In this document: in pieces, positions 6,840 through 9,930 of the stretch | Layout: each line of letters opens with the position of its first letter | Position numbering within the stretch: position 1 is the first letter of the stretch | NCBI RefSeq assembly: GCF_003206615.1 | Contig: NZ_PZJW01000006.1 | Coordinates: 310,001 to 374,000 of the forward strand | DNA: 64,000 bases | Source: Salinicola acroporae | Lineage (GTDB): Bacteria > Pseudomonadota > Gammaproteobacteria > Pseudomonadales > Halomonadaceae | Direction of reading: 5' to 3' | Program-made: the position numbers and the translations under genes | Notes under the pieces: model-generated | The model's database searches: none | What the model was told of the DNA's origin: nothing | Seen by the model: the letters and a program-made list of their open reading frames with translations, nothing else

Positions 6840-7721
6840 ATGAAAAAATCAACGACTGGCCTGCTACTGGGTTCCGCTCTGGTAGTCGGTCTCTCTGGTT
6901 GTGCCAGTTCCGGTATGGAATCCACCGGTAGCTCGTCAGACCAGGCTTGGTATCAGTCACCGTTCGTCTGCGGCATCGCCGGCGGCTTGATCGGTGGCGG
7001 CATCGGTTACGCGACCAGCAGCGATTCCGACGAAGATACCGGTGCTGCGGTCGGCGGCGTTGCCGGCGCAACTGCCGGTGCTCTGCTTTGTGCCGACTAT
7101 TCTTCGAACGTCATGGATAGCGATGGCGACGGCGTGCCCGACGATCGCGACCAGTGCCCGAATACCCCGGCTGGCGTAGCGGTTGATGCCGTGGGTTGCC
7201 CGCTCGACACCGACGGTGACGGCGTGCCGGACTATATGGACCAGTGCCCGGGAACTCCGGCCGGCGTTGAAGTCAACGCTCAGGGCTGCCCGCTGGATTC
7301 CGATGGCGACGGCGTGCCGGACTATCAGGACCAGTGCCCGAATACCCCGGCTGGCGCGGAAGTCAACTCGCTGGGTTGCGAGGAAGACCTCGTGCTGCGT
7401 GACGTCAACTTCGAATTCGATTCGGCCAAGTTGACCTCAAGCGCTGAAGCCATCCTGGATGGGATCTCCGGGAAGCTGATGGCCAACGACCAGTTGCGCA
7501 TCCGTCTTGAAGGCCACACCGACTCCGTCGGCCCCGCGGCCTACAACAAGGAGCTGTCGCAGCGTCGCGCCGACTCCGTCAAGGCCTACTTGGTCAACAA
7601 GGGCTTCTCCGCCGATAACATCACCACTATCGGTTACGGTGAAGAGCAGCCGATCGCCAGCAACGATACCGCTGAAGGTCGTGCTCAGAACCGTCGCGTC
7701 GAACTGGGTGAGTGGGAATAA
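6840..7721 (+). CDS. OmpA-family lipoprotein with thrombospondin type 3 repeats
   Basis: A 293-residue exported protein. The lipobox LSGC at residues 18-21 predicts lipid attachment at Cys21. Residues about 35-90 are Gly/Ala-rich with two glycine-zipper stretches. Residues about 90-180 hold three near-identical Asp-rich repeats (DSDGDGVPDDRDQCPNTPAG type), the Ca2+-binding thrombospondin type 3 motif. The C-terminal domain (about 185-290) is OmpA-like and keeps the peptidoglycan-contact motif NxxLSxxRAxxV as NKELSQRRADSVKAYL. It probably bridges outer membrane and murein. The start has AAGGAG at 6828-6833, six bases before the ATG. Pal at 60842 is a shorter relative without the repeats. Confidence 0.9.
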   Translation: MKKSTTGLLLGSALVVGLSGCASSGMESTGSSSDQAWYQSPFVCGIAGGLIGGGIGYATSSDSDEDTGAAVGGVAGATAGALLCADYSSNVMDSDGDGVPDDRDQCPNTPAGVAVDAVGCPLDTDGDGVPDYMDQCPGTPAGVEVNAQGCPLDSDGDGVPDYQDQCPNTPAGAEVNSLGCEEDLVLRDVNFEFDSAKLTSSAEAILDGISGKLMANDQLRIRLEGHTDSVGPAAYNKELSQRRADSVKAYLVNKGFSADNITTIGYGEEQPIASNDTAEGRAQNRRVELGEWE

Positions 7722-7753
7722 GCATCTTCCCGACACGCTAATGACGTGATTTT

Positions 7754-7775
7754 GAGGGCGCCTTCGGGCGCCCTC
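7754..7775 (+). terminator. Hairpin after OmpA-like lipoprotein gene
   Basis: A perfect 9-bp stem GAGGGCGCC/GGCGCCCTC closed by a TTCG tetraloop, 32 bases after the stop. The T-tract is weak (AATGTTTG), so it may act as a terminator or as an mRNA-stabilising 3' end. Confidence 0.7.
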
Positions 7776-7976
7776 AATGTTTGTAGTGTCGAAATGGTTG
7801 ATCCCGGCGTCGCTTGATTGCCCGCGGATGGTAAAGCGGCTTAGCCGCTGCTAGTCTACCGCTCCCCGCATCCGCCGAACGGTGATGCCAATCCACTTCC
7901 CTCGCGTACCGGTCGGCCTGCCCGTATGCAGGTCCTGTCGCATGGAGGGGGTGTTACTTTGAATGATCGAGTTCAT

Positions 7977-7997
7977 GTGGTCTTTGGTGTGGACCAC
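7977..7997 (+). promoter_or_regulatory. Candidate thrS translational operator: tRNA-Thr anticodon mimic
   Basis: GTGGTC (7977-7982) pairs with GACCAC (7992-7997). With a U-G pair at 7983/7991 the loop is exactly seven bases, UUGGUGU. That reproduces an anticodon loop with U at position 33 and GGU at positions 34-36; GGU is a threonine anticodon. GGU lies at -34 to -32 relative to the thrS ATG. In E. coli ThrRS binds tRNA-like hairpins in its own leader and blocks ribosome entry. The match here is by eye, without covariation data. Confidence 0.6.
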
Positions 7998-8019
7998 CAC
8001 TGAACGTAAGGATGTTTTG

Positions 8020-9930
8020 ATGCCTATTGTGACACTGCCCGACGGCAGTCAAAGAACGTTTGAAGAATCCATTACCGTGATGCAGCTGGCCGAATCCATC
8101 GGCCCGGGGCTGGCCAAGGCGTGCATCGCGGGAAAGATAGATGGCGTTGAGGTCGACGCGGCCGACGTCATCGACCGTGACGCCGAAGTGGCGATTCTGA
8201 CCGCCCGCGATGAAGAAGGGATCGAGATCATTCGTCACTCGTGCGCCCACCTGCTGGGGCATGCGGTCAAGCAGTTGTACCCGGACGCCAAAATGGCCAT
8301 TGGCCCGGTGATCGACGACGGCTTCTACTATGATATCGATTTTGAGGCCTCGCTCTCTTCCGAGGATCTGGAGGCCATCGAGGCTCGGATGAAGTCACTC
8401 ATCGAGCAGGAGTACGATGTCGTCCGGGAGTACGTTGATCGCTCTGAAGCACTGTCGGTGTTCGTGTCGAGAGACGAGCCTTACAAGCAGGAAATCGTCG
8501 AAGGTATTCCTGAGAACGAGACGATCCGTCTCTATCACCATCAGGAATACATTGACATGTGTCGCGGCCCCCACGTGCCGAACACTCGCCATCTCAAGGC
8601 GTTCAAGCTGACCAAGCTGGCCGGTGCCTATTGGCGCGGCGACGCGTCCAAGCGCATGTTGACCAGAATCTATGGTACGGCCTGGGGCGACAAGAAGGCG
8701 CTGAAGGCGTACCTGACGCGACTGGAAGAGGCCGAGAAGCGCGATCACCGCAAGCTGGCACGGCGTTTCGACTTCTTTCACATGCAGGAAGAAGCGCCTG
8801 GCATGGTCTTCTGGCACCCTCGCGGTTGGACGCTTTGGCAAGTCGTCGAGCAGTACATGCGAGGCGTCTACAAGCGTAGCGGGTACCAGGAGATCAAGTG
8901 TCCTCAGGTCATGGACGTGTCGCTGTGGAAGAAGTCCGGCCACTGGGACAACTACGCCGACAACATGTTCTTCACCGAGTCGGAAAAGCGCGAGTATGCG
9001 CTCAAACCGATGAACTGCCCGGGTCATGTCCAGGTCTTCAATTCGGGCTTGCGCAGCTACCGGGAGTTGCCGATTCGCTATGGTGAGTTCGGTGGCTGCC
9101 ATCGCAACGAGCCTTCGGGCGCCTTACACGGTATCATGCGGGTTCGGGCATTCACCCAGGACGATGGGCATGTCTTTTGTACCGAGGGGCAGATCGAGCC
9201 CGAGGTGACTGCCTTTCATCGCCAGGCGCTCGAGGTCTACGGTGATTTCGGCTTCGAGGATATCGCCGTCAAGATCGCGCTGCGGCCCGACAAGCGCCTC
9301 GGCAGTGACGAGACATGGGACCGCGCGGAGGATGCTCTTCGTGCAGCGCTGGGCAATTGCGACGTCGAGTGGCAGGAACTGCCCGGCGAGGGCGCATTCT
9401 ATGGCCCGAAGATCGAATACCACATGAAGGACTGCCTGGGGCGTGAGTGGCAGGTCGGAACCATGCAGGTCGACTTCATGATGCCGAGTCGCCTGGGAGC
9501 ACAGTACGTCGCCGAAGATGGCTCGCGTCAGGTGCCGGTCATGCTGCATCGTGCCATCGTGGGATCGATGGAGCGTTTTGTCGGTATCTTGATCGAACAT
9601 TATGCCGGGGCCTTGCCGTTGTGGCTCTCCCCGGTCCAGGCTGTGGTGCTCAACATCACGGATGCTCAGCGTGATTATGCCGAAAAACTCGCCAAACGCT
9701 TGCGTGAAGCGGGTTTCCGGGTCGAGTCGGACTTGAGGAATGAGAAGATCGGCTTTAAAATCCGCGAGCATACGCTGCAGAAGATTCCTTATCTGCTGGT
9801 TGTCGGCGATAAGGAAGTCGAATCGGGTGCCGTTGCAGTGCGTACTCGGTCCGGTGAGGATCTTGGGTCGCTATCGGTGGATGCGCTGTTGGCGCAGCTC
9901 CATCGAGACGACCAGCCGGACAGGCACTGA
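8020..9930 (+). CDS. thrS: Threonine--tRNA ligase
   Basis: A 636-residue class II synthetase charging tRNA-Thr in the cytosol. The TGS domain occupies residues 1-60. The editing domain carries HSCAHLLGH near residue 72 and CRGPH near 180, which remove misactivated serine. Zn2+-binding NCPGH is near 332 and class II motif 2 appears as [12 protein letters not shown]. The start at 8020 (MPIVTLPDG) has AAGGA at 8007-8011; an upstream in-frame ATG at 7963 would add 19 residues without family support and would lie upstream of the leader hairpin. It is the first gene of the thrS-infC-rpmI-rplT-pheST-ihfA cluster and is probably autoregulated through 7977-7997. Confidence 0.97.

Follow-up and report, generated by a model that had tools for sequence, protein, structure and literature searches.

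The leader of the threonyl-tRNA synthetase gene (thrS) in Salinicola very probably constitutes a translational operator with two arms, a counterpart of the operator known from E. coli; by analogy with that system, threonyl-tRNA synthetase (ThrRS) would bind this leader and repress its own translation. Mimicry of the tRNA-Thr anticodon arm in the thrS leader is well supported by the compared leader sequences. An earlier note on this DNA had proposed such a copy together with control by ThrRS, and the proposal is supported by the E. coli counterpart, by covariation and by an N-G-U (NGU) triplet in all 76 thrS-linked loci that were read. Observed directly in this analysis were the hairpins and their covariation, a proximal arm that matches that of E. 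coli, and loops in which G35-U36 is fixed and position 34 is free. The thrS operator, worked out in E. coli, is a textbook example of a bacterial mRNA that imitates a tRNA. This kind of operator is already known; what is added here is its occurrence in Salinicola and widely in Gammaproteobacteria, as well as its natural variation.

The window, a stretch of 64,000 nucleotides of Salinicola DNA, presents in 5' to 3' order an OmpA-like gene (6840-7721), a terminator-like hairpin, the leader, thrS, and further open reading frames. On the forward strand, thrS (8020-9930) starts with ATG 8020, encodes 636 amino acids, and is preceded by the ribosome-binding site AAGGA (8008-8012), recognized by its sequence. 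Because the intrinsic terminator-like hairpin (7752-7777, forward strand) follows the upstream OmpA-like gene, the sequence suggests that thrS is carried on its own transcript; a promoter scan of 7700-8060 found no sigma-70-like promoter. The reading frames 3' of thrS, judged by eye, presumably encode IF-3, L35, L20, PheS, and PheT. Salinicola ThrRS comprises a TGS domain (residues 4-61), a tRNA_SAD domain (169-218), a class II core, and an anticodon-binding domain, and its residues 1-630 align with chain 1qf6_A (642 residues), which we take to be E. coli ThrRS. The N-terminal region needed for repression in an E. coli-type operator is present, as TGS and tRNA_SAD.

The proximal arm occupies 7971-8005 of the forward strand, within the thrS leader and just ahead of AAGGA. 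Its inner stem-loop (7977-7997) has the sequence GTGGTCTTTGGTGTGGACCAC, which as RNA reads GUGGUCU-UUGGUGU-GGACCAC and forms seven pairs, six Watson-Crick and a closing U.G, around the seven-base loop UUGGUGU. The anticodon-like triplet GGU fills positions 34-36 of this loop (7986-7988), at -34 to -32 of thrS. The hairpin and loop described in the earlier note are therefore real in sequence and fold, and its placement of GGU near AAGGA agrees with the coordinates of the triplet, the ATG, and the ribosome-binding site. Absent from that description was an outer helix, GUUCA/UGAAC (7971-7975 with 8001-8005), separated from the inner stem by an internal loop in which a one-base bulge, U7976, lies opposite CAC (7998-8000). 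All 72 aligned leaders have this CAC, though many of them had been chosen by a criterion that includes these letters. When folded alone, 7977-7997 adopts a stable form of -9.2 kcal/mol that is equaled by 2 of 200 dinucleotide shuffles, and the 35-base arm including the outer helix shows a modest gain over shuffles (z -1.46; 19/200 as good); the arm as a whole has the fold shape of the E. coli leader and covaries over 72 leaders. The entire leader (7900-8060) is no stabler than shuffles (z -0.65), and its predicted fold pairs part of the thrS ribosome site.

Two reviews present the self-control of E. coli ThrRS by a mimic of the anticodon as established, with an operator that has two anticodon-like stem-loops (PMC7373986; PMC9976931). 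According to these and a third source, ThrRS binds the arms, its N-terminal part blocks the 30S subunit, and tRNA-Thr competes, while exchanging the threonine anticodon of the mimic for that of methionine passes control to MetRS (PMC7373986; PMC9976931; PMC3858243). The E. coli operator resembles the Salinicola leader in its place before thrS and in its seven-base loop with a threonine anticodon. Both share a common fold, consisting of an inner stem of seven pairs, a loop of seven bases, a 1x3 internal loop, an outer helix, and CACUG after the stem, whereas the proximal triplet is GGU from -34 in Salinicola and CGU from -33 in domain 2 of E. coli. Other synthetases are also described in the two reviews as binding anticodon-like arms in their own mRNAs, for example yeast AspRS (PMC7373986; PMC9976931); the likeness to the Salinicola proposal lies in that mode of binding, but yeast AspRS is another enzyme from another domain of life and homology is not expected.

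Conservation of the arm was measured by scoring the seven stem pairs and the following CACTG while ignoring the loop, at a threshold of 11/12. In the order-level sample, thrS was detected in 58/58 genomes, and 49/58 leaders reached the threshold against 0.35 expected from dinucleotide shuffles. The class sample yielded thrS in 255/274 Gammaproteobacteria genomes; from the best 150 of these matches 145 leaders were taken, omitting three genomes already in the order set (G000, G031, G056) and two that lack upstream sequence (G144, G167). Here, 64/145 leaders reached the threshold against 1.05 expected from dinucleotide shuffles, 63 of them with NGU; the one match without it, at -166, presumably arose by chance. 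The triplet falls between -24 and -45 in 47/49 order-level and 63/64 class-level matches. Below the threshold were 9/58 order-level and 81/145 class-level leaders. Six of those nine order-level leaders (L018, L023, L032, L044, L045, L382) show a degenerate copy by eye, and inspection by eye found no element in the other three (L042, L381, L383). Second copies of thrS in four genomes (L374-L377) carry the element in 0/4 cases.

Stem conservation with compensatory changes, which the earlier note had proposed to look for, is evident in alignment A1, which holds 72 distinct leaders, in part chosen by the pattern scan described below. In A1, 93.6% of stem cells are paired, compared with at most 51% for slid partners, and 75 double-change cells occur against 20.3 in shuffles. 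The stem pairs are often G.U, at pair 7 in 39/72 leaders and at pair 4 in 16/72, which argues for a helix of RNA. The 18 Salinicola loci come from closely related genomes and are not independent of one another; all 18 have GGU and stems of at least 5/7 pairs, and at stem pair 4 nine show an A-C mismatch.

The pattern scan covered one genome per species and left positions 34-38 free; U33 and some of the stem letters were required by the pattern itself and therefore carry no evidential weight. It gave at least 116 stretches, 80 of which were read. Directly preceding thrS are 76 of these 80, a link established for 69 by a scripted test of the protein start and for seven (L072, L073, L106, L121, L126, L128, L130) by reading that start. 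All 76 carry NGU, as GGU in 47, CGU in 18, AGU in nine, and UGU in two, and the four stretches not before thrS (L052, L064, L068, L117) have UCC, AAG, CAA, and UGC, with NGU in 0/4. NGU is likewise found in 49/49 order-level matches (GGU 42, CGU 5, AGU 2). The 63 NGU matches at class level divide into CGU (41), GGU (13), AGU (5), and UGU (4); position 33 is other than U in seven of them. At one locus (L330), a chance match elsewhere scored equally, and the tie was settled in favor of the CGU element. Throughout A1, G35 and U36 are present in 72/72 leaders.

The history of these letters was followed on a quick ThrRS tree of 71 rows, comprising 66 of the 76 named leaders (those with ThrRS of at least 230 amino acids) and five others, in which 34/68 inner branches are starred. 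The four triplets require at least 17 changes on this tree. For letters that the pattern did not fix, the minimum number of changes over the 66 rows is 17 at position 34, 0 at both 35 and 36, 9 at position 37, and 14 at position 38, with 12 to 17 in four stem columns. Marinomonas alone displays GGU, CGU, and AGU within otherwise equal stem-loops. Every element accepted in these samples has G35-U36, and position 34 is free. The invariant U-(G/C)GU loop put forward as a test in the earlier note holds for G35 and U36, but A and U are also found at position 34, and 7/63 of the class-level NGU matches lack U at position 33. One review describes the E. coli operator loops as having the anticodon CGU, with G and U, the threonine identity elements (PMC7373986).

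The tRNA-Thr genes of the window's own genome read GGU, CGU, and UGU. A tRNA-shaped pattern, which might miss an odd tRNA, found no AGU tRNA-Thr in the genomes of three AGU leaders (L108, L131, L069), and the sole AGU pattern match, in the genome of L108, was no tRNA according to ARAGORN, which was applied to 15 loci, none from the genome of L131. By the same pattern, the genome of leader L065, which has CGU, shows only GGU and UGU tRNA-Thr. That the triplet follows the isoacceptors of the genome is rejected on the basis of these AGU and CGU leaders for which no matching tRNA-Thr was found. The suggestion in the earlier note of the same control with a different isoacceptor is not upheld, in that any of the four bases can stand at position 34 and AGU occurs even in genomes that yielded no tRNA-Thr of that kind. 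Because some leader triplets match no tRNA-Thr found in their genomes, the mimic seems to signal threonine in general, through N-G-U, and not to copy any one isoacceptor.

A candidate second arm, GGCCUGC-CCGUAU-GCAGGUC, is located upstream at 7915-7934 of the forward strand, with CGU in its loop at 7923-7925, that is, -97 to -95 of thrS; it had been missed in the earlier note. It folds at -10.3 kcal/mol (4/200 shuffles as good) and appears in the predicted fold of 18/18 Salinicola leaders, about 90-100 bases before thrS, with CCGUAU as the loop in 17 of them and CAGUAU in the remaining one. Among 14 distinct Salinicola rows, 15 double-change cells were counted against 5.0 in shuffles. Unlike a true anticodon loop, the loop of this arm has six bases and no U33. 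E. coli likewise has a second upstream hairpin with an NGU loop, and the starts of the two triplets are 63 bases apart in both the Salinicola window and the E. coli record. The upstream hairpin is shorter in Salinicola than in E. coli, where UGU (-96 to -94) sits in an eight-base loop. Its position and its NGU make 7915-7934 a candidate homolog of E. coli domain 4.

A first statistic on upstream arms was discarded, because D-arms of tRNA genes that precede thrS distorted it and enrichment was seen for GA and CG too. In a narrower statistic, GU was present in 48/120 of the strongest upstream hairpins (178 leaders), compared with 15.5% in shuffles. However, 14 of these 48 hairpins are from Salinicola, and class-level leaders with an upstream hairpin have NGU in 8/46, about the shuffled rate of 15.5%. 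For these reasons, the second arm is claimed, from sequence, for Salinicola, and other clades, in some of which the strongest upstream hairpin carries NGU and its wobble letter varies, are treated as leads. More than one NGU arm was seen in three leaders: L050 (G043) has three hairpins, L285 (G093) has its proximal arm preceded by two or three more, and L384 (G045) has two head-to-tail copies with CACCACTG after each. D-arm-like hairpins about 120-195 bases before thrS were observed in L036, L049, L109, L123, L217, L244, and others, which suggests a tRNA gene just upstream of thrS in those genomes.

Other explanations of the proximal hairpin have to be weighed against an operator. Attenuation by a leader peptide with threonine codons would involve an open reading frame that begins at ATG 7963 and enters thrS in frame. 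Within the window this frame is open through 7963-8019, and its ACC ACC ACU (7993-8001) overlaps the conserved CACCACT, although pairing and the GU already limit which letters can stand there. Because the distance from hairpin to start codon varies among leaders, all three frames occur, in 28, 11, and 10 leaders of the order sample and 33, 16, and 15 of the class sample; moreover, no terminator-like site was seen between the hairpin and thrS. With a frame that is not conserved and no terminator after the hairpin, a leader-peptide attenuator was ruled out as very improbable.

An inverted repeat near the start of thrS could also be expected of a DNA palindrome for a dimeric transcription factor, or of a hairpin devoid of ThrRS specificity, such as one affecting mRNA stability. 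Either deserves hardly any credence: a DNA palindrome offers no reason to keep as many G.U pairs as are found at pairs 7 and 4, the distance of the triplet to thrS is narrow at both taxonomic levels, and among the free loop letters only the two threonine-anticodon letters, G35 and U36, never change. The A-C mismatch in half of the Salinicola loci might instead point to an operator relic that still folds but no longer regulates in this genus, yet the GGU retained in every one of these loci, the stems of at least 5/7 pairs, and a second arm that covaries within Salinicola make such a relic highly unlikely. A functional translational operator remains the preferred reading.

The element extends well beyond Salinicola. 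Covariance model R1 matches 95/274 Gammaproteobacteria genomes at E <=0.01, nearness to thrS having been compared for part of these matches. In four genomes (G061, G122, G145, G198) the sole match is weak (E >=0.0055) and lies away from the thrS place, and a further weak match was seen in G097 beside another one; these five matches are probably due to chance. In the phylum sample, R1 matches 37/249 genomes at E <=0.001, all 37 of them Gammaproteobacteria, the out-of-class share of the 249 not being given. The window's genome has one match at E <=0.01. Judged by the 63/145 sampled leaders that pass with NGU, the element is common but not universal in Gammaproteobacteria. An element with UGU was also observed at L130:417-448, on a contig titled Polyangiaceae (Myxococcota MAG); the ThrRS of L130 nests among Gammaproteobacteria on the ThrRS tree, and the contig appears to be either mis-binned or transferred.

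At the gathering score, Rfam gave no match over the element, and its only match in the 64-kb window is a tRNA. Four weak matches, none of them relevant, fall in 7740-8080 at E <=10; the one that covers the hairpin is DicF, which at 16.1 bits stays below its cut-off of 48. T-box leaders also lie upstream of synthetase genes and sense tRNA supply, but they bind the tRNA itself through a codon-like specifier; no T-box was found in the window at the gathering score or among the four weak matches. In a literature search by title and opening of the abstract, no comparison of thrS operators from species other than E. coli came up, though one may exist among subscription papers, most of which lay outside the search.

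By analogy with E. coli, ThrRS in excess over tRNA-Thr would bind its own mRNA as a dimer, one subunit contacting the proximal arm (GGU) and the other the upstream arm (CGU). The anticodon-binding domain would read G35 and U36, and the bound enzyme would bar the 30S ribosome from the AAGGA and AUG just downstream. Free tRNA-Thr would compete for ThrRS and relieve repression. Binding, the use of one arm per subunit, repression, and tRNA competition are taken from E. coli, and there is strong reason to expect each of them in Salinicola.

Natural variation in this operator separates what ThrRS must read, G35-U36, from what it would ignore, without recourse to a mutant. An alignment and a covariance model are now available for an element that had no Rfam match at the gathering score here, and the AGU and tandem-arm variants provide natural material on how the enzyme tunes its own level. 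More tentatively, the operator could be a generic threonine signal whose wobble base and arm count tune ThrRS repression to the tRNA-Thr pool, a possibility that we consider less probable than its converse. If it is true, the wobble base and arm number would set how hard each species represses ThrRS.
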